The notes under the pieces were generated by a model. The model was given only the letters and a program-made list of their open reading frames with translations. It searched no databases and was not told the DNA's origin. The translations under genes and the position numbers were made by a program. A stretch of DNA of 64,000 nt from Neelides folsomi (lineage: Eukaryota; Arthropoda; Collembola; Neelipleona; Neelidae), in the NCBI GenBank assembly GCA_034687125.1, contig JAQGBZ010000007.1:372001-436000 (forward strand), in the 5' to 3' direction. Shown piece by piece: positions 12,358-62,835 of the stretch. Each line of letters starts with the position of its first letter. Position 1 is the first letter of the stretch.

Positions 12358-13976
12358 TCAAATGTACAAATTTTGAAATCGCCAATTTCCTGTTGGTCTC
12401 ATTACTCCAATAGAACCTATATACAAATCGTGTCAATGATATTACGTTAGTTAATTAGAATATTGTTATAAAAATATGCGTGAAAAAATATTTACCAACA
12501 AGGAAAAAGGAAATCTGATGACCAGGAATGAAAACTCCTCCTTAACGCCAAGGTTGAAACTTTGCCATTTTGCCGATTTTCAAGTTCTGTCTACCAAATT
12601 CCGCACGAAATAGATTAGAGTCTTTCAAGATCAAGATCTTTATAAAAATCGTTCCAATGTGCAATACCGAAGCAGAACATAACAAAAATGATATAAAAGT
12701 AATACATTTTTCATTCATCATAATTCATACGTATATCGTATTATATATTTATATGAATGAAAAATGAGATCATAGTTTTACAACAATAAGAAGGATTAAG
12801 AAAACTATAAAAATCAATTTTCGCCATTCGAGCAATCTTGTCTATCTGACTGACAAGAATGGGAAAAATAATTATTCCGAATTACTTATCAAATGAAGTA
12901 AGGAATTTGAAAAATCGCCAGACCTGGAGAATTATCTTTTTTGTTTTTATACATAACGATAACGTAGGAATAATATATGATTACATTTGGGTATATACAA
13001 TTTAATTGTCTGCAACTTTTATTATTGTGATGATGTTAATTTGACAAGAGGGATTAGTGGGAAAGAGGAATCATTTCAAGTATCATATCAGTAGAGAATA
13101 ATGAATTACTACCTAAATCTCTTCAATTATTTCTACTTCGTATCGTGTAATTATGAACGAGTACACATTTTTGTAATATTTTACAAAGCACACATATTTA
13201 ACATCAAATATTAACTAATGGACTAATTCATACTTCAATGTTTATTTGTTTAAGCTTCTAATGTTAACAATTTGTATGATATGTGAACATATACATACAT
13301 ATATGTATATGTTTATAAGTAGTTAGGTATGTATGTAGAGTAAGTAATTATACAAATTGTAAGGTGTGTATTTACGATTAGTTTCAACTTTCAAATGACT
13401 ATTAAACAAAAAACGTCAGCCTCTATTAAAGTTTAGCCTATTAATGCAAGTATAGGCATTTGAATTTGTGTAAATAACTTTAAATTACATTACACATATA
13501 AGTTCATATCTTATTTATCAGTTATGTTATAACGTTAAAAGTTACACTTATAATTCATAATACATAAATAGGTTTGCCTTAATGACGCGTCAATCCAAAC
13601 GAGGTTTGACGAGCAAAGTAACAAAATACGGGTATAATTTAAATGCATTAACAAGTGAGTTTGGTTCAGTTGATGTAAAGTGAAGTGAATTGTATTTAAG
13701 ATTCTCAATGCTTCCTGAGCTTCGCTCGACGATAAAACTTATAAACGGATTCTTATTGCCCCATCTCACATTTCGCTAACTCCACAGATTTCCCATATCC
13801 AATTCAACATATCAGATTTAACTTAACAATAGTTAACATTAACATAAATGGGACAATTTCAATTTAATTGATTTGTTTTATTAACATGATTCGATTGTTG
13901 GTTGTGAGTGATCTGATCCTTTTTGGATAATTTAATATTCAATTTTGGGTTTTCGTTGTTAAGTTTTAATCTGAAA
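12358..13976. other. Intergenic DNA between divergent IDE and SGLT genes
   Basis: AT-rich with no gene seen. It contains the upstream regions of both flanking genes, a short inverted repeat (ATTTTTCATTCAT near 12706, with its complement near 12755) and a TA-rich ATGTATAC-type microsatellite near 13285-13335. Confidence 0.5.
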
Positions 13977-16900
13977 ATGGAAGGAGCAACTTCGACTGGG
14001 CAACTTAATTGGATTGATTTCCTCGTTATTGCTGTTTATTTCATCGTAATTTTAGGTGTCGGATTAATAGTGAGTAACACTTTGACATTACATCTCAAAT
14101 ATTTAATTATAATTACTAATTAACAGATCATTTCTATATTATTAGGTAATGTTGATTAATTCACAATACTAATTTTTATTAACATGAGAGTTCGAGTAAA
14201 TTAAAAAAAATATTAGCCACTTGACATTTAAAATAAAAATAAAAAAATACTTGCTAATGAAAATGAAACTAATATAATCTTTTAAAATAACTAACAAGTA
14301 TAGTTAGCTAATATGAAGAAGAAATGAATGGAATGTTTGGAATTTCATCATTTATCATATGAATTCCTTTTCGTTGTTAAAAGAAATTGAAATTTCCATC
14401 GCCCTTGAATTTGGTTTTATCCATGAGGAAACATTTATTCTCTATTAATGTATACCATTTTATTATAATATTTATTTGTTGGTTTATTATAAGATCAATG
14501 TTATAAAAAGTGAAGTAAATTTCGTCTTTGATGGCGATGATGTAGAATCCAATATTATGGATATGACTGCCAGCCTGGCATGGCATTGTGATTGAAATGA
14601 GGAATTTATTAGTGTCAATGAATTGTATTTTAAATGTGGTTTGTGGAAGGTTACTTAAACTGATAAGTGTATTGTTTTATTATGTAGACTAACACGTACA
14701 ACTTAATATCTTTTAAACTTAAATCATTAATGTTTAAAATACAAATTTTACTATTTTATATAAATTTATATTCTTTAGTCGTCTTACAAGAGCAAACGGT
14801 CGAGCGTTCAGGGATATTTTCTCGCATCCAGAAGCATGCATTGGATTCCGGTATTTTTCCTCAATGAATGACTTATGAAACTCCTTAAGATTTATCAAAA
14901 TTGGCATAAAAGTTTATAATGTTGAACAAATGATATTTCGATATTAATTAGGTAGGAGCTTCATTATTTGCTAGTAATATCGGAAGTGGACATTTCATTG
15001 GATTAGGTGAGATTTGAATCACCTGTAACAATCTACCTAATATAATACCTAAATATTTGATATGATGTACTTTAATCATCTGATATCAATATTTTATTAT
15101 TTAAATTATTGAAGTATTCCCTTATCTATCTATTATTATATAATTTATTGTCTTTTTCTATAGCGGGAAGTGGAGCAGCTTCAGGTATTAATCAATTTAT
15201 ATGCAATATGATAATTGGAGCATTCTTTGAATCAAGATTCATTCTTCTATTATTACTAATTAGGAATTGGAATTGCGGCATTTGAGCTAAATGTATGAAT
15301 ATTATTATTCTATACATGAACTATATAAGATTTTCATTTTAATGATCAAAAAAGTGAGTGATGATTCTTGTTTATGCGTTGTATTTGTGTATAAGATGAG
15401 ATCTCTTTATGAAATTTAGGCAATTTTCGTTTTAATGATTCTTGGATGGATTTTTGTTCCGGTTTATATGGCGGCTGGGGTTTACACAATGCCTGAATAT
15501 TTAAGGTTAAGATTCGGAGGGCAAAGAATAAGAATCTTTTTAGCAATTTTGGCTCTCATCTTATACGTATTCACAAAAATATCGGTAAAGTATTAACTTA
15601 AGCTTACCTATATAAACGTTGAATGTCAAACAATAATAATAATATGTAATTAATTATATGTCTAATTTACAAAATTTAACATTGAAGGCGGATTTGTACG
15701 CTGGAGCTCTCTTTATTCAACTAGCTATGGGACTAAACAGCGATGAAGGGCTTTACATCTCAATTGGAGTTTTATTGGCCATTTCAGCTATTTTTACTAT
15801 TGCAGGAGGGTTAACGTACGTTTTTTGCATTTATATTGGATAATAATTCATCATTACAATGAGTATTATTGTATAATATCCGTAAACTTTTATTTCAGAG
15901 CCGTGATTTTTACGGATTTGGTCCAAACGATATTAATGATAATTGGAGCCTTCATTCTCATGGGATTGTGTAAGATTAATCTTTCATTCATCCTCAGTGA
16001 TTCAAGATTCAAGTTTAATGAGAATTTGAATTTCTTTAGCTTTGAACGCTGTTGGAGGTTACAATGAACTTATAAGGAAATATCCTCACGCCAATCCATC
16101 ACCAAACGCGACTCTGTTCGACTCGAACAACAAAAGTTGCGGGGCAGTTCCAGACGATGCCATGCATTTGTTCAAAGATATCAATGCTGGCAAATCGGAT
16201 CTCCCTTGGACTGGTGTTATTTTTGGTAAATAATTTTATGATTTAGGTCAAATATTCTTCCTAACTTTCAATGTAATTAAACTTCTCCAGGTGTCACAAT
16301 TTCTTCTATCTGGTATTGGTGCTCTGATCAGGTTAGCTCCTTAAATACTTACAAATCACTTTTTACTCACTCAATATTTGCAACGTTATGTGTATATGTA
16401 ATTAGGTAGAATTTGTTCAAAAAGTATGATGTATAGAATAACGACAATTTGTATACCTATATCTGTATTATTATTATTACTTAATTATTATAGGTCATCG
16501 TTCAAAGAGTCCTTGCTTCAAAGAACATGAGCCATGCTAAAGGAGGTTGCATGCTTGCAGGTTAAATATTTAAAATTTAACATTAGAACTTATAGTCACT
16601 GTAATTGTATATATCTCTATGTACCAATATTTATCTAGTAGGTTTAAATAATTTTAATGAAAAGCTTCACTTTGTTTTAGGATATTTGAAACTTCTTCCA
16701 ATGTATCTCCTCGTGTTTCCTGGAATGGCGGCTCGTGTATTGTACACTGATAGAGGTATTTTATATTTAAAATACTTAACTTTCACACTACATTCTTAAT
16801 CATAACATTTATAAGATCTTCATATGTTATGAAAATATTAAATTTTCATTTAATTTTGTTTAAAAAGTTGCATGTGCACATCCTGACGTTTGTAAGGAAA

Positions 16901-19700
16901 TATGTGGATCAACTACTGGATGTTCGAATATTGCATATGCAGAGCTTGTAATGAATCTGATGCCTGTTGGTATGTTCAAGCATTTAGCATTTTAATACCA
17001 ATTAGCATATTCCATGCCCTAGTATTTCCGCTTTGTGAATTTTAAAGTAATCTATTTGATTTGAAGGGCTCGCTGGAATGATGATGGCTGTTATGTAATT
17101 ATTCATTAATGAAGCTACATAAAATCTTTTATTAGTATTATTATGTATTTACTATAAATAAATACATTCCTATATATAATATTCGACGGTTTATATGGTT
17201 TGTATATAGGATGGCTGCTTTGATGAGTTCTCTTACTTCGATATTTAATTCAAGTTCTACTATTTTCACCATCGATATCTGGACTCGTATCCGAAAAAAT
17301 CCGTCTGAAACAGAACAGCTAATTGTTGGCAGGTAAGCCTTTAGTTCAAATAAGGATAATTTAACTATGCTCGATACTTAAACATATGTATATTAACTTT
17401 TTATTGAAATCTTAAGTTATTTTCTTCATTTTTGATAACCAAAAACAGGCAAAGAAATATTAATAATGAATTTAAAGGGTCTTCATCTTATTTTTATTGG
17501 GAGTTTCAATTGCATGGGTCCCCGTTCTTTCAAGTCTTAAAACCTCACAGCTATTTGTCTACATTCAAGAAGTCTCAAATTATTTGTCTCCTCAAGTGAC
17601 CGCGGTCTTCCTTTTGGCACTTTTTAATCATAGAACTAATGAAGCGGTACGAAATATTTGAAAAAAATTAATTTCTAATGCCTTCCTTCCTAAATCCAAC
17701 GAAATACCCATATTAGTTATATAGAGTACATTGGTGCTTTAAAAACCTTAAATTACTAACAATGCTGATTGAATGTGAGACAAACACAATTTAATTCTTG
17801 AAGGCAACCTATTTGTTTACTAATCAATTTACTAAATGACGCATTAGTAAAATGGGCCAAATTAATAATGTTTTATTTTTGTTGGGATGTATCTGTTATG
17901 CGTAAAATGTTTAATTAATATAAACAGAAATGTTTCAAATAACAATTTAGCAATGAAGTCAAAATGTAAACTTTCCTCAATTACAGTATGTTGTTTAATT
18001 ATGGTTGAAATTTAATAATTTCTAGGCTCTCCGTCTTATTCCTTGTGTTTGTGAGCATCATTTGGGTCATAATTATAATTTCATCATCCTCGACGTCTAA
18101 ACTTTTCACGTACATTCAAAGTATTACTAGTTATCTTGCTCCTCCTGTTTGCGCTGTTTACATTTCTGCCATCCTCATCCCTCAGGTTAATGAGCAGGTG
18201 TGGTTCAAGTTCCTTTCTCCGCTTTCACTCACCCGCAATTCTTATTATTAATTTTAATTGCATTCCAAACTATTCTCCGTCTTTCAATCCTTGTCTATAT
18301 ATCTGTGTTTTACAAGCTTTAATAACAAAAAAGCGATAGTTCATAAGTGTCTGTGGAGTATTATTATCACTATCATTAATGACACCTTCATTAATAACAA
18401 GAGATAATATTTATTTGTGAATGATTTTAATGCATGAGCATTGTGATAAGTTATGCAAAGTATTAATATCTAGTAGGTATTACAAGTTATATAATATAGT
18501 TATACATGAATATAAAAGTATGTGTACAATCTATTGTTATTATACATGTTTGTTAATTAAATTAGGTAACTATGTTTTGTATTTATGACGTTAATTATAT
18601 GATCTTCTACAATAAAATTATATATGTTTTATAGTAAGCCAAATCAACTTTAATATTTAAAGAGTAATTTAATAGGGAGCCTTCTGGGGTCTGGTGATTG
18701 GTCTACTTCTTGGAATATTAAGATTCGTTATTGAATTTTCATTTGCAGCTCCAGTATGTGGGGAAGGTATATATATATATTATTTATTTTAATAATCACA
18801 TTAAATGAAATTCTTGTTATGTAGCTAGAAATAAATAAGAAAGTTACTTATTGTTATTATATCTAATATCTCTATATTAGCTCATACAGATTCTAGATAT
18901 AAGTATGCATAGATATTTGTATTTGTTACATATGTAATATATATGTATACATACATACCTACTCTATATTTTCCCTACAGATTTAATTGACACAAGACCA
19001 GAATTCATCAGAGTTTTTCTTGAAGATATTCATTATCTTCATTATGGATGCTTTTTGTTTGTCATTACTCTTTTAATTACTTACCTGATCAGCATTATGA
19101 CGGATCCAATTGACCCGAGAAAGGTTGGTGTTTAATATATTACAAGATGGAATCCTTATTATTTACCAAGTCAAAAATACATTTACCTAGTGACTCTTAT
19201 TAATATTCTCTTGTATAGCTTTATCGGTTGACATTTTGGACCAGACATAGCCAAGAAGTTCGCCTCCCTCTTGACGATGAAACGGATGTTCCAAGTGCGA
19301 TTGTAGAAAATACAATTGGTAATTAAATGAATGAACATTGCTATTGATTTATGTAATTACCTAAAATATTGAATATCATAAAGATAAAGAAGAACAAGAA
19401 GAGGAGAATGTACTAAAGAAAATGTTCAATTGTATATGCGGAATGGATAATGGTAAATCAGACGAACTTTCCAATGAACCAAAGTTGAGTCCAGAAGAAG
19501 AAGCGTCTGCAGCTGCAAAGTTTTTGGATGAAACCACATTTTGGAAAAGGTTAAAAATTAATTTGACTTTTTTGGTATATGCCTCCAGTTGTTTGTTAAC
19601 TTACAATTACATAAAAAAATTCTTATTTTGCAGAACGATCAACACTAACGCATTATTCCTCATGATAGTAGCAATTTTTTTCTGGGGATTTTATGCATGA
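13977..19700 (+). CDS. Sodium/glucose cotransporter-like (SLC5/SGLT)
   Basis: Twenty-one exons used per transcript: 13977..14069, 14779..14850, 14952..15006, 15164..15184, 15264..15292, 15420..15584, 15688..15815, 15899..15969, 16040..16225, 16291..16331, 16494..16560, 16681..16755, 16868..16969, 17067..17094, 17210..17332, then 17478..17646 or 18026..18197, 18676..18766, 18981..19123, 19219..19318, 19384..19549, 19634..19700. That gives 663 or 664 residues, as in human SGLT1. It is a 14-helix membrane symporter moving sugar with sodium. Sugar-site residues known from SGLT1 are kept: Asn and His in [16 protein letters not shown], Glu in AAFELN, Tyr-Trp in SIWYWCSDQ, Lys in GYLKLLP, Gln in YIQ. 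The sodium-site [12 protein letters not shown] is also kept. The protein ends in the hydrophobic last helix (FFWGFYA). ATG 13977 is the first ATG in frame. The exact SLC5 subtype is not clear. Confidence 0.92.
17478..17646 (+). other. SGLT alternative exon a
   Basis: 169 nt, entered after AG|G and left in phase 0. Encodes a helix pair with [18 protein letters not shown] and [11 protein letters not shown]. It aligns residue for residue with exon b and with the single corresponding stretch of SGLT1, so only one can be used per transcript. Confidence 0.85.
18026..18197 (+). other. SGLT alternative exon b
   Basis: 172 nt with the same entry and exit phases as exon a, one codon longer. Encodes [19 protein letters not shown] and [12 protein letters not shown], closer to SGLT1 around the sugar-binding Gln (IQSITSYL). 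The 379-bp intron separating it from exon a is open to regulated mutually exclusive splicing. Confidence 0.85.
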
Positions 19701-20627
19701 GCAACTCTTGTATGATCACTAAAAGTATAATAATAATTAAGATATCAAACGTATTGGTAAAATATAAGAACTTCAAAGTATCAATATATGAGTTTAAGTT
19801 AATACATAACATATGTTATATAAGTGATTATTTATTTAATTGCACATTCTTTATTTTCCCGTATAAAATGTATCCTAACACTTAATTCGAAATATGATAT
19901 CATTGTAAATGTAAATTTACAATGATTGTGAGTTTATCAGTATCAAATTTTTTAATTAAGATTCCGATTGTACTTAATTATTATCATGATAAATAATGTT
20001 TTTTATTATATTACAATTGATTTATTGCCACATTTATTTTGACTGAAAAAAGTTAAAATGAAGTTTGCATAGATAAACAAGTGTTAATTTGTTACCGACA
20101 AGCTTTTCTCTCATAAAACTTAAAATATTCTTTCGTTGATAATTGATTAGATGTATGTGTACATACAATAAGTCCAATCTGAAGTGAAAATTAAGAAATA
20201 AAACTTATTATTAAATAAAATTACATAAAAGGTAAAAGTAAATATGTCAAAGAGGTACAGAAAAGGTAAAAAAAATTAAAATAAGAAAACGAGAGTACAT
20301 ACCTAAATGCCCATTTACTTATAAATATTGTTCTATGCGGGTATCTGAATTTTCTGAATGAGTAGTACTTACTTAATATAGTGCACGTTTGTCAAAGCAC
20401 TATCTTATAAAGGAAAATCGCCATCGCGTAAAATTAAGTATTTAAAATCTCTAAAAGTTGACCTTAAAATAGTCATTCCTCAATATTCGTCTGTATCCAC
20501 TTACACATCATTCGTTAATAATTCTGAATACATCATCTTGGGATGATTCTAAATATCGTTAAAAAGAAACAAAAACTTCTAAAATCACTTGTCAATAAAG
20601 GAATGACATTCGAGGAACAATGTCTTT

Positions 20628-29453: not shown

Positions 29454-31184
<1,731 letters not shown>

Positions 31185-42756: not shown

Positions 42757-45700
42757 ATTTTCCTAACCATACAAATCTTATCTGTGCTGGCTTTAAGTCG
42801 AAGGGACTTGATGGTCTTACAAAGCGCGGTCGAGGACGACCTCACAATTATCTAATGGCGAATTATTTTCATGGGTTCTATTCTGATCTGATTCGGGGAA
42901 TGTGTGAAGCCAATTGTTCTGGACATGGGGACTGTCTCAATGGAACTTGCTTCTGCGAGGTAAATCACTTATTTCTTAATATTTAAATTCCTAAAGATAA
43001 AAAGTGAACAAGGAAAACTAATTTGATCAGATTGAACAAAAGACTTTGAGAAGAACATGATCGAGATGAACTCTTTGATCTTCGAATTACAAATACAAGA
43101 GAAAAGTTCAATCGAAGAATTTGTATAATTTGATTCAACTTTTCCAAAAATCCCTGGAAAAGTTTTAATGCAAAATATTTTCATTTCCACTTTTTTGTAT
43201 GGTGAAATGGAAAGGTTTTGAAATACGAGCTCACTTCGATGATGACTTCTCAAATTACTCTTTAACTTTAAATAATATTCCAATAAGTAATATGAACCTT
43301 ATTTAAAAATTAAATGAAACTGAAAGGGAATTGCCCTTTTATTTTTTAATACTTACTTTTATTACTTTTTATTTATTTACTCACATTACATTTCCCATTC
43401 ATTAAGGACATGTGTCACTGAACGAGTGCAAGTGTCCTTAATGGTCCATTCCATGTATGTGGAATAAAAGTATTTAAATTAAATGTAAAACTCTCCAAGT
43501 TCACAACAACTTATAATACAAATTCCAAGAAATGAATAAATATTTAAATAATGATCCGACCTTCATTTCTCTTCCAGATCAAATTCTCGGGAGCAGAGTG
43601 CGGAGGAACGAACATCAATTACCACATGAGCCTCGCTTCAATGTATTTAGTTGTCGCTCTCGTCACGTTTTGCCAACTCTTGATCTCGGTGGCTATGTCA
43701 TGCAAACAAGTCGGAAAGGGGAACAGGATCCGGGAAGCGTTCAGACCAACCACTCCGAAGGCCATTTACGCCATCGTCTTCGTTGCAGCCTCCATGAGAG
43801 CAGCCTATTTTGCTGCCTCTGTAAGTGCCCGAGGAATTGAAAGTTAATTGAGCAACCAGCTGATTGGGATTTATTTTAGGCAACCCTTGCGGGCGACTGG
43901 CTCGTTAGCCTTCTCAGTGCGTACTATCCGCTCCTCCTTACAGGATCCTCACTCATTGTTTGTTTCTGGGCAGAGGTTAAATATTACACTTTTATAACTA
44001 CCATCCCATTTTAAATTTGGTACTTGATTAAATAAATTTTGGATTTGTTTGGGTAGATATTTCACCTTCGAAATGTATGTTTCGAATCACATCGTTTCCT
44101 ATCAAAGTCATTTCTTGGATTCCTCGCTTTTAATGTTGTTACCTATTCGTTGCTTTTGGCACAACTCCTCCTGGTTCTCGCTAACAGTGACGAGCAAGAA
44201 AAAGTAAGCAAATATATCATCGTATTTTATTCTAATTTAATTTTTACAATAGGTGTATTATGTAGCATAATATGAGTATTGCGATTTATTTTAATATTCA
44301 GTAATAACAATGAACAATTTTATGGAACAGAGTTACTACTTGAATGTATTTAATGGATGCTATGCTGTACTCCTCCTCATTGTCGTCATCTTTTTCCTCA
44401 TTTACGGAGTAGAGGTGTATTTTAAGGTATAGCTTCTTTTTTAAATCTTACTCTTTTTTATGAAATATTATAAAGCGTAATTTTTAATACCAACAATCCA
44501 CATATAAATACTTACAAATTACCAAACGTAATCTTGTAATTAAGATAATTAGCATTATTATTAATGTAAGTTGACTCACATTTATAAGCATTTGTTTTAT
44601 ATACTTTATAGTGTAAATATATTGCACAAATCGAATATGAATATTACTCTTCGATGGAAAGAGCAATTTTGGTGCCTTTTGATTAAACAATATGAGTTTG
44701 AATAATAAACGTTTGACGTTTTGCGATTATGCTTTGAGTTATTATACGATTGGTCAATATATTAATATACTGATCCAAATGCACTTTTTAAAGTTTATTA
44801 AATATTAACATGATTTGTAATCAACTAACATTGTTTTACAGATTCGGGGAGGATTTTTGCTATTGAGTCCAAATAAGAGGAACGGAGATTCATATGCCAA
44901 AACAGACACCATGGCACTCGTTTCTGGACAAAAGGCATGAGCATTTTATAAAGTTTTTAGAATTGTGTAATTGCTATTTCTAGTTTTTTGCATTAAATGA
45001 CTCGAGGAATTTTTTAAAAGTATTTAAATGCTTCAAGCGCATGAAAGAAGACTTTGTCCTATTCTATGCCATGCATACTAATACACATTATTTAATTATT
45101 TGTTATATATCTTAGATAATAAGGATATATCTTAGATATAATATAAATCCTTACTGTTTTAAATTTATTATGTATCCACTGGTCAATCAAATTATCTTTG
45201 AAATATAAAAGTTGTTTTTTAATTTACCCAACCCAATCTAATAGCATTGTTTATTTATTTTTTAATGATAACATGTTATTATATTAGCAGTTGGGTTGAT
45301 TGAATTTAAATTATTAATTCTAAACTCCCTATAATATTAAATCTGATTAAGTTTTTCAATGTCAATTCAAGTCAGTTTATTTGTGTATTATAATAGAAAA
45401 TTATATGAAATTATTTATTGCGGTCAATACTAACTGTTTGAATTGTATTGACATTAGCTTTGCGGAAGCTCTCAACCAGTCAATACATCACAGCTTAACC
45501 AGTCCAGACTTGGACTCATTTCTCAGGCTTCCATGCTCCTTGTCACAGTCGTTTTTATTTTATCTGATATACTTGGAGAATTTTGGAAAAGCAAGTAAGT
45601 TTGTAGTTTTAATTCAGAAATTATCCATACATAATTTTCACATATTGAATATTTGAAATTAAAATGAGATAATGTTTATAGGGTGAGAGTGGAAAGTCGA

Positions 45701-46650
45701 AATTACCACGACATTATATTTCGGGTTGTCGAAATTGGAGCAGCCCTTTGGTTCCCATGCGTTCTTTGGAATGTCAATCGACCTGAACAACTTTGGATTT
45801 TAAATCCGAAAAAGATTCTGAAAGCAAATACCAAAACGACAGCCATTGTGGAGAAGCAAAAGGATTTACTTCTCAGTCAGCATGATTCTGAAGGGGCCGG
45901 GGCCGATTGTCAAGACGAGAATTTGAGTCTTTCGGAAGGAAATGTTGGTTGTTACTTTTGCTACGACCCTGAAAGATCTGATGCTGGTCCACTCATTCAA
46001 CCTTGCGCATGTCGAGGTGACGTCGCCACGGTTCATCATGATTGTCTTCGACGTTGGCTACTTCAAGTTAGTCCCAATAATCATGAACAAAATGCAAAAG
46101 ATCATAACTTTTTACATTTTGAGTATTTAATATTTTAATGGAATTAAATGAAATATTTTGAATCTTGTCAATTTAGATTGCAGCAGAGAATCAAACAACA
46201 AGCTGCACTGTTTGTAAAACTCCGTACAAACTTGAACGAGAGAAATCATTGAGTTGGTCGGCTTGTTCGGATGTTTCTGCTTCTCATTGGCTTCGCTTTT
46301 CCCTTATGGTGGCTGCAATTTCTGGAATTTTTATGTCGACCTGGGCCCTTTGTCATATTTTGCCCACAGCTCCATATCGAATTCTCGTCGTCGGATTTGC
46401 ACTCATTGGGACTTACATTATCGCAAAGTGAGAATCTTTATTAATTTGCACATTTTCTATTTATATAATTTTTAATTTCTTATATTAACTTTTACACATT
46501 TCTTATAGATTGTTCTATATGTGATTTTATATACTTATTTTCAGATTTCTTGGACAAAATACTTTTTCGGCGTATCAGCAGGCCAAAGTTTCTTCTGTTA
46601 AAATCATCTCGAGGGACAACGAGGAAGTGGCTTTAGAAACAAAGATCTAA
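42757..46650 (+). CDS. EGF-like, seven-pass membrane protein with C-terminal RING-CH domain
   Basis: Supported exons: 42757..42959, 43578..43820, 43880..43975, 44057..44203, 44331..44426, 44842..44934, 45458..45594, 45682..46066, 46177..46427, 46545..46650; the 5' end is unresolved. Order: extracellular segment (CAGFKSKGLDGLTKRGRGRP), one EGF-like knot (CEANCSGHGDCLNGTCFCE), about seven hydrophobic helices, then a cytosolic RING-CH (45950-46225) with CYFC, CAC, HHDC, CTVC zinc ligands in C4HC3 order, two more helices (VAAISGIFMSTWALCHIL) and a short tail. RING-CH domains recruit E2 enzymes, so a membrane ubiquitin ligase is likely; the substrate is unknown. The 44842 exon either ends at an in-frame TGA (44938), giving a five-helix form without the RING, or uses a GC donor at 44935 to join 45458 in phase 0. 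I do not recognise a named family for the whole protein. Confidence 0.75.
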
Positions 46651-59700: not shown

Positions 59701-62700
59701 AAAATCTACTGACGTAAGGTTTAAGCATCTCTTTGTGATAATAAAAAATTCCATGATGGGCGAAAGAGCAAATGATAAAAAGAGAATAAAATGTTCAATT
59801 TAACTCTGCGGATTTTTGTAACTCGTCAGTGAAGAGCTTTAAAATCCAAAATGGTTCCATGATGTTAAAAACATCTCTGATTCTCTTCAATGTTCTCCTA
59901 ATGCATAATGTCAAGAATGGATGTGTAAAGCGAATTCGAGTATTTTTTTCAACCATCTCGAACCTTCCAGGTTGGTGAAGAGTGGTTTGCTTACAAACTG
60001 GCTCATGTTCCTCCAATCCTCGTGCAAATGTTGTAGTAAAATGTGTGTATAATAAAATAATAACTAATTTAGACCAACAATGGCTACAAACTTCCATCCA
60101 AATGGATGTGAGAGCGAGTGATGATGACGAGTGCGAGAAATGCCAACTTCCACATTGTAGGTACACAACACATGATTGTGGAGTCAGGATGTGTTCTTCA
60201 CATAAATTTCGCAATCGAATGAACAGGAGTCTCTCTATCTTATTTGTCAAATAGGAAGTGCAAACGAGAAAGAGTTGATTATCTCACTATACATGGTAGG
60301 TATATGAAATTGTTCAATACTCTTTTTACTATGTACGTGATAAACATTGGCAAGATCTCGGAATTTGGGATATGAAGAACACTCAAATTTCCAATGATTT
60401 TTTCGTTCCGTATTTATTTTATATGATGGGATGCACATTGAACCATTCAGTGCTCACATGATAACAAACATAAGGTGTTGTTTCTTTATATTAAATATAC
60501 CTACATTAAGTATATATAATATATACATATGATAACTCCGACAATTAAATAGTAAATAGAAGGTTCACCATTATTCGAACCAATGATAAAAGATATTTTT
60601 CAACTCTTTTGTTTCACTTCGAGGTGTCTCGCCCCGCAGAAGACTTATACAATTATTAGAGATTTTATTTCTAATATAACTAATAAACTAATATCCAAAT
60701 GAAATTCGTTTAATATAATATATAATACATAAGTTTTTATGCATTTGTTAATATGTAAGTAGATGAATATTATATGTATCTACCGGTAGATTTGCCCATC
60801 GGCAAGCGAGCTCCTTTGAGCTCTTCGTTTAACGACACAATTATTTAGGGAAAGGAAATGAAACGATCAATTTCCTATTCAATTCAAACACAACTTATGT
60901 CGTTTCCTACTGTGCATTCTGTCACCATTTTTCAATATTCCTCGGTCACTTAAACTCCTATTTATTCTCTAAGCCCTACCAGATAATATTTGAAAGAAAT
61001 AATCCACATTTTTCTAACGATTTCTTTTAATTGTATAAATACAAAATATTTCTTAAATACAGACAAGTAAGTTAATAGTTTCCTCAATAGCAGTACAGTA
61101 ATCATTACATGCTATATACCTATTAGATTATAATTATAAGCAATTGGGTTTACCAAAAGATGGCAAAAATGAACCAGAGAAGGAAAGAGATAAAACTATT
61201 TACAATTTTAATCCTAGCTATAAATAAAAGGAATTATTATGCTAATTAATTAAAGATGGTACCAATACCAATATGAAATATAACAATTGACAAATAATGA
61301 GAGGAATTTCACGGTTAATTCAGTATAAAAAGATTTACGATTAAATGACGTTTCTGGCCAAAGTTATATTTTGAAAAAAAAAGTGTTTCTACCTCTATAG
61401 CGGAAATCATAGTTGAAAATATTGACATTATTCTAATGTAAAGATAAATTGGAGCATTCTAATTTCTGAGTGAGTCTTTTTATCATGCAGTCTTTGCTTG
61501 TCGGTAGAAAGTAGAAATAAATAAGGATTTAATGAAAGTATTGCATATTCCACCTACACGTTTAATTTATGTTATTGATGTCAAAATGTCACAAGTCAGC
61601 AGATTGTCATTATCTCGTCACAATTGATAATATTATTTTGTAATTTGACAATCGTTTACTATTTGAATATTTAGTTTTTCTTACTACATGTATCCCAGTG
61701 CAACAAATTGCGCGACAATCCATTCAATGATATATCACATATCAATGATAAGTAAACTATAAATATAAAAACAATAAAAAGTATCGTAGTCTGAATACTA
61801 TGTATTATAGCTTACTTTGATTTAAGCTTTATCTAACTATCACTTATTATTTACCCAATTCCATGCATATTTATCTGTAAAATACTTATTAGTTGTTAAA
61901 TTTGTACAAACCTACAGCCCTATTTACTCATATGTAAATGTGTATATAATACATACCTAGTCTATATTTGTGTGTGAACATGGAGTATGGAATTTAATCA
62001 GTGGAATAAAGTTCAATTCCCGTTAATATCATATAGTACATAGCTATCTTTCATTATAAAATAAGATATTAGCTATATTTATACTTTTGCAAATAGAAAT
62101 GAAAAGTGAATACCTAGTAAATTTGGGTTTTTCTAACGATGAGTACTTTATGTAATAATACTATATGTACAGATATATAGGATTTGTGCTAAAAAATATA
62201 GTTAAGTATTATATGAATAGTAAGAAGCAGAGATATGGGCTTGAATCTCACCGGCAAAGATCCGGATCCGCTGTCCGAAGCATGTGAAGTTCGATCGTCA
62301 TCAATGTGCCCGTTTCCGTTCATTTCTTTTTCAATGTGACTGGCGTTGAGGTTCGTGGTCTCTGCTGGCCTTGGCACGGGAGTCTAATAAAGATGAAAAA
62401 CACTTGTTCATACTTTCCAACTTGTTTATTTAAAATATGAAGGTGAAACGTTGTGCGACTCAAAATTAACTCTACCTTGAGGTATAAGACATTGGGCATG
62501 GCCCCTGTGACAACTATACTCTTTGACTTGTAGTAGTCGTCAGCGACGTCGTCGAGGACCAGGAGTTTCGTCTCGTTGGGAATTGCCTTGATTCGTTGGA
62601 CCACTTGCTTGTGGTTCTCGTTGGCAATGTTCGTCCCGTTCACTTCCATGATCCGATCTTGGGACTTGAGTCCTGCAGCCTCCGCCGGCGATCCCGGATC

Positions 62701-62835
62701 GACCTTCCCAATGTACTGCCCAGGCTTAGACTTTTCTCCATGGAGGTTGAAGCCATAGCCGTCGAAGTCGTCCCATTTGAACAAATGACAGAGTCTTGGC
62801 GGCGGAGCGTCCCCCAAGCTCTCGCTCGCCATCAT
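56715..62835 (-). CDS. NHERF/EBP50-type scaffold with one PDZ domain
   Basis: Three exons in transcript order: 62835..62476, 62383..62252, 56993..56715; 771 nt, 256 residues. A PDZ domain (about residues 12-95: [20 protein letters not shown] with carboxylate-binding GYGF, then [30 protein letters not shown]) is nearest to NHERF PDZ domains. A Ser/Pro-rich linker and a basic tail ([29 protein letters not shown]) follow; this is the ezrin-binding segment, as in mammalian NHERF1 (QMDWSKKNELFSNL). The last residues QTL can also act as a PDZ ligand. Such proteins tie membrane transporters and receptors to ERM proteins under the apical membrane. Mammalian NHERF1/2 have two PDZ domains; this gene has one. 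The second intron (56994-62251, about 5.3 kb) is the longest in the window and appears empty. The start uses the first of two adjacent Met codons. Confidence 0.9.

Follow-up and report, generated by a model that had tools for sequence, protein, structure and literature searches.

Two tandem exons, very probably mutually exclusive, encode alternative sugar-binding hairpins in an SGLT-type transporter gene of the collembolan Neelides folsomi

Results

An SGLT-type SLC5 gene lies in a 64,000-nt stretch of the Neelides folsomi genome, and one of its helix pairs is encoded twice. The stretch, here called the window, spans positions 372001–436000 of contig C7 (JAQGBZ010000007.1) in a 75.1 Mb draft assembly of 840 contigs (GCA_034687125.1). 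On contig C742 of this assembly, COX1 translates under the invertebrate mitochondrial code with AAA as Lys at conserved positions, which speaks against a flatworm. We built the exon model by hand (Table 1). Three acceptors, at 19384, 19390 and 19393, keep the reading frame at one exon, and we chose the first for the model. The predicted protein has 663 residues with the first of two alternative exons, A, and 664 with the second, B. Human SGLT1 (7wmv, residues 25–664) matches the 663-residue form at E 6.5e-210 and human SGLT2 at E 1.6e-206. Other solved relatives match it far less well, with bacterial SGLT at E 1.9e-69 and an iodide transporter at E 2.4e-15. By full-length homology and by its sugar-contact residues, the gene is a member of the SGLT branch of SLC5.

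Table 1. Features of the SGLT-type gene, in window coordinates
Feature	Position	Strand	Description
SGLT-type SLC5 gene	13977–19700	+	22 exons, 21 per transcript; 21 GT-AG introns; hand-built exon model
Constant exon upstream of the cassette	17210–17332	+	Final AG starts the Arg codon that A or B completes (R427 of human SGLT1)
Exon A	17478–17646	+	169 nt; TM9-TM10; peptide VFILFLLG...NEA
A–B intron	17647–18025	+	379 nt, third longest of 21; folding no better than shuffles
Exon B	18026–18197	+	172 nt; TM9-TM10; peptide LSVLFLVF...NEQ; one extra residue before TM10
Intron 3' of B	18198–18675	+	478 nt, second longest of 21
Constant exon downstream of the cassette	18676–18766	+	Phase 0 entry; begins GAFWGLVIG

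The rest of the window holds open reading frames (ORFs) that resemble unrelated families. On the plus strand, two WD40-repeat ORFs (27–1763) appear COP1-like by eye, a long ORF with C2H2 zinc fingers at its end (29466–31184) has the look of an Egr-type factor, and a RING-variant domain ORF (45683–46138) appears MARCH-like. On the minus strand, a PDZ-domain ORF (62320–62835) appears NHERF-like. Searching the window against Rfam at gathering scores gave no matches.

Protein and Pfam SSF searches of the genome, whose match counts are lower bounds, found no second SGLT-type gene. The exon A peptide had at least three matches, and all three fell in the gene described here. The full protein had at least 20, 19 of 20 in this gene and the last a weak match on contig C60 (E 0.019). 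At least 15 matches to SSF were recorded, four in this gene and 11 on nine other contigs. A comparison of ORF pairs across nine regions around these other SSF genes revealed no duplicated SSF exon. Similar same-strand pairs occurred in only two of them, L039 and L045, and we rejected these as candidates after comparing 20 of their ORFs with Pfam, none of which matched SSF. The three plus-strand ORFs examined in L039 are zinc fingers; the 15 in L045 have no Pfam matches save two below the cut-off in a single ORF. Separately, a run of short similar ORF pairs on the plus strand of L045 (70–2123) suggests a repeated block lying more than 2 kb ahead of the SSF match, and eight of its ORFs match no Pfam family.

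Exons A and B each encode a version of the same SGLT helix pair. On its own, A matches residues 428–482 of human SGLT1 (7wmv) at E 6.9e-16 and 60.3 bits. B matches residues 429–483 of the 7sla structure of the same protein at E 4.7e-13, and residues 429–482 of 7wmv at E 2.6e-10 and 43.1 bits. Against the Pfam SSF profile, A and B each score above the cut-off and align to one stretch (344–396 for A, 344–397 for B). The cassette corresponds to residues 428–483 of human SGLT1, helices TM9-TM10; from the alignment and published numbering, we place most of TM9 within it, together with the loop and TM10. An earlier sequence-only reading had proposed two versions of one helix pair, and these matches bear it out. 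Its exon coordinates, lengths, AG/GT splice sites, AG|G entry and phase-0 exit were all correct, as were the flanking junctions it named at 17332 and 18676.

The two exons are clearly related and considerably diverged. Twenty-six of 56 aligned residues are identical, as are 52% of aligned bases. Their alignment scores 122, against a mean of 9.9 (SD 7.7) and a maximum of 42.5 in 2000 shuffles. When the 122 stop-to-stop ORFs of 28 residues or more in the gene region (13501–20300) are compared, A and B form the sole similar same-strand pair at E ≤ 1e-3, and no third copy of the exon was found. Differences number 27, 20 and 33 at the three codon positions, and the same codon is used at 10 of the 26 shared residues. 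We obtained a dN of 0.55 and a dS of 3.3 (NG86) or 2.2 (LWL85), values that are only rough because synonymous sites are saturated. The gap between dN and dS suggests that both exons have been maintained as protein.

The duplication that produced A and B is probably old. Identity to human SGLT1 is 31/56 for A and 29/56 for B, much like that of the constant flanks (57/102 and 16/30). We built a small tree of 57 columns from A, B, human SGLT1 and SGLT2, and 12 bacterial sequences chosen from 41 aligned. A and B are not sisters in it; B joins SGLT2 with support of 88/80, too weak for dating. The divergence between the exons, the saturated synonymous sites, the flank-like identity to SGLT1 and, with its weak support, the failure of A and B to group together suggest an early duplication. 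Among the relatives gathered, an uncultured-bacterium record (L063, positions 501–1905) carries an SGLT, interrupted by a frame shift, that is 46% identical to the animal protein in one segment (129/281), above the best-segment identity of the 42 other relatives listed.

The reading frame permits A or B, and not both. The exons are neighbouring, internal, homologous and similar in length. Each completes the Arg codon opened by AG at 17331–17332 and exits in phase 0, so either fits the constant flanks. Given these splice sites, a full-length in-frame protein arises solely from A alone or B alone. If A is joined to B, the frame shifts and a stop follows 24 residues into B; if both are skipped, a stop comes after six residues past the Arg. 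Messages that stop early with several exon junctions downstream are, by an established rule, expected to be degraded. Since several junctions follow the early stop in both aberrant messages, each would be expected to be removed by nonsense-mediated decay, and the frame itself would thereby enforce exclusivity. The sequence-only reading had argued that joint use would duplicate helices and break the topology. That rationale gives way to a stronger one, as joint inclusion fails at the frame shift and stop.

Other barriers to joint inclusion are probably absent. The 379-nt intron between the exons leaves room for both splice sites, and the donors at the cassette (GTAAGC, GTACGA and GTGTGG) do not look like the U12 donor, which argues against a U2/U12 mismatch. 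Splice-site scores, from a model derived from the gene itself, are mid-range: of 21 sites each, the donors of A and B rank 15th and 9th and the acceptors 8th and 5th. Intron lengths speak both ways: the two introns beside B, third and second longest of 21, favour an exclusive pair, and the short one ahead of A (145 nt) counts against it. In one survey of human mutually exclusive clusters, 60% hold exons whose length is no multiple of three, a steric block is possible in 9%, and a U2/U12 mismatch occurs in 0.79% (PMC5740500). The gene described here falls in the first of these groups.

No clear sign of intron pairing as the selector between A and B emerges. The sequence-only reading had suggested looking for complementary pairing in the A–B intron, and nothing unusual appears there: folded alone, it gives a z of 0.71, and 75 of 100 shuffles do equally well. 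Of seven intron pairings tested, the best joins the first of the introns around the cassette (145 nt, preceding A) to the third. None of 100 shuffles reached it at first, but 25 of 800 did subsequently, and it ranks fifth of 89 intron pairs in the gene. For both reasons we give it no weight, and no pairing stands clearly above controls. In the arrangement we propose, the spliceosome would choose A or B according to cell type or stage.

Several features of the two exons could be explained without exclusive use of both. One of them might be used and the other be a duplication relic no longer spliced in; in favour of this, A lacks Pro466, the Pro after Trp-Val is missing from B, and B scores below A against 7wmv. 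Yet A and B are both open across 56–57 codons with intact AG/GT sites, each is closer to human SGLT1 than to its partner, and any such relic would need to be recent, since dN lies far below dS despite the saturation of synonymous sites. We consider a relic improbable. It is harder still to credit a poison switch, in which one exon is productive, the other lowers transporter levels via decay, and double inclusion or skipping is the regulated event. Both double products do shift frame and stop early, as such a switch would have it, but a poison exon needs neither SGLT residues like YIQ nor an in-frame sequence that passes the SSF cut-off.

An error of assembly is the least credible of these accounts. 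A draft genome in 840 contigs may contain false joins, and A and B could in principle come from two genes or alleles. Their DNA identity of just 52% speaks against this, the genome searches yielded no second SGLT copy within their lower-bound counts, and no other pair of similar ORFs of at least 28 residues occurs in the gene region. Homology, identical phases and the frame failure of both double inclusion and double skipping together lend strong support to the exclusivity proposed in the sequence-only reading. Very probably, then, A and B arose by tandem duplication within one SGLT gene and are mutually exclusive.

Discussion

The swap between A and B changes some residues with a reported place in sugar binding or gating and spares others. 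In PMC10803289, sugar contacts include Q457, F453 is an external gate residue, and TM10 is a gating helix, bent by a Pro465-Pro466 motif; the C6-OH pocket of SGLT2 differs from that of SGLT1 in having S460 for T460. In PMC9616851, F453 and Q457 line the water path, and D454, on M10, contacts the inhibitor tail. Both exons retain F453 and Q457, and the YIQ glutamine that the sequence-only reading took for an SGLT1 sugar ligand is this Q457. At position 460, Ser in A faces Thr in B, the very difference between human SGLT2 and SGLT1. At position 466, A has Gln and B has Pro, leaving the double-proline motif complete in B and P-Q in A. Residue 458 also differs, with Glu in A against Ser in B. The Asp454 of human SGLT1 and SGLT2 is absent from both isoforms, replaced by Val in A and by Thr in B. 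The TM9-TM10 loop also changes, and Ile in B replaces the Pro found after Trp-Val in A and human SGLT1.

Some of these substitutions are rare among bacterial relatives. Gln466 occurs in none of the 41 aligned sequences, nor in any of the 35 that align well. In these 35, positions 465–466 read PP in 25, PA in five, GP in two, and SP, AP and PG in one each. An acidic residue stands at 458 in two of the 35 and at 454 in 15. Outside the cassette, where we read residue numbers by eye off the human SGLT1 alignment, equivalents of N78, H83, F101, E102, Y290, W291 and K321 are conserved. Position 287 is Ser, as in SGLT2, and the remaining C6-pocket positions, 283 (Val) and 286 (Ser), resemble neither human paralog.

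The gene probably makes two different transporters. Because the sugar contacts checked are conserved, both isoforms would be expected to be Na+/sugar transporters. They would differ in affinity, C6-side sugar preference, gating or Na+ coupling, and the residues swapped make a difference in substrate or coupling plausible. More tentatively, and with considerable doubt, we suggest a splice switch between two modes: B as an SGLT1-like Na+/glucose symporter with Thr460 and the Pro-Pro bend, and A as a form with altered coupling, C6 pocket or substrate, marked by Ser460, Glu458 and the lack of Pro466. Neither isoform can be assumed to work as an ordinary SGLT, given the loss of Asp454, Gln466 in A and the unusual residues at 283 and 286. 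Coupling in SGLT1 reportedly requires a negative charge at 454. If that rule holds, one may speculate that Glu458, one helix turn on, could substitute in A and that nothing would do so in B, which would count against B as the ordinary SGLT1-like form.

Exclusive exons at a transporter's substrate helix have precedent, and their occurrence in an SLC5 gene is, on good support, the new element. Exons A, B and F of NKCC2 (SLC12A1) are mutually exclusive tandem duplicates that swap one membrane helix and alter ion affinity along the kidney, and transcripts show each of them in use. The present gene likewise uses tandem duplicated exons to swap a helix of a Na+-coupled transporter. It differs from NKCC2 in transporter family and in the helix concerned, and its exon use is predicted from sequence. 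Human SLC25A3 and SLC39A14 lie outside SLC5 and have different folds. Like the gene described here, they are transporter genes with mutually exclusive alternative exons, according to PMC5740500. A third mutually exclusive exon of SLC12A1 is mentioned in PMC9741552, and the term 'SLC5' has no occurrences in the main text of either article. Among the papers listed in our searches of a mostly non-subscription literature, no title or abstract opening described mutually exclusive exons in an SLC5 gene.

The comparison with human SGLT1 and SGLT2 (SLC5A1 and SLC5A2) frames what the collembolan gene may do. It belongs to their family by full-length homology and keeps their sugar contacts, and the S460/T460 difference between the human paralogs recurs between its exons. 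It departs from both in the loss of Asp454 from either isoform, of Pro466 from A, and in residues 283 and 286. Humans have separate genes where this animal has one gene with two helix versions. If the two-mode switch is true, splicing in a single gene does what several SLC5 paralogs do in vertebrates. If confirmed, A and B would provide a natural matched SGLT pair identical but for the hairpin that gates and binds sugar, and with it a clean natural experiment on residues 454–466 and on splicing as a replacement for gene duplication.
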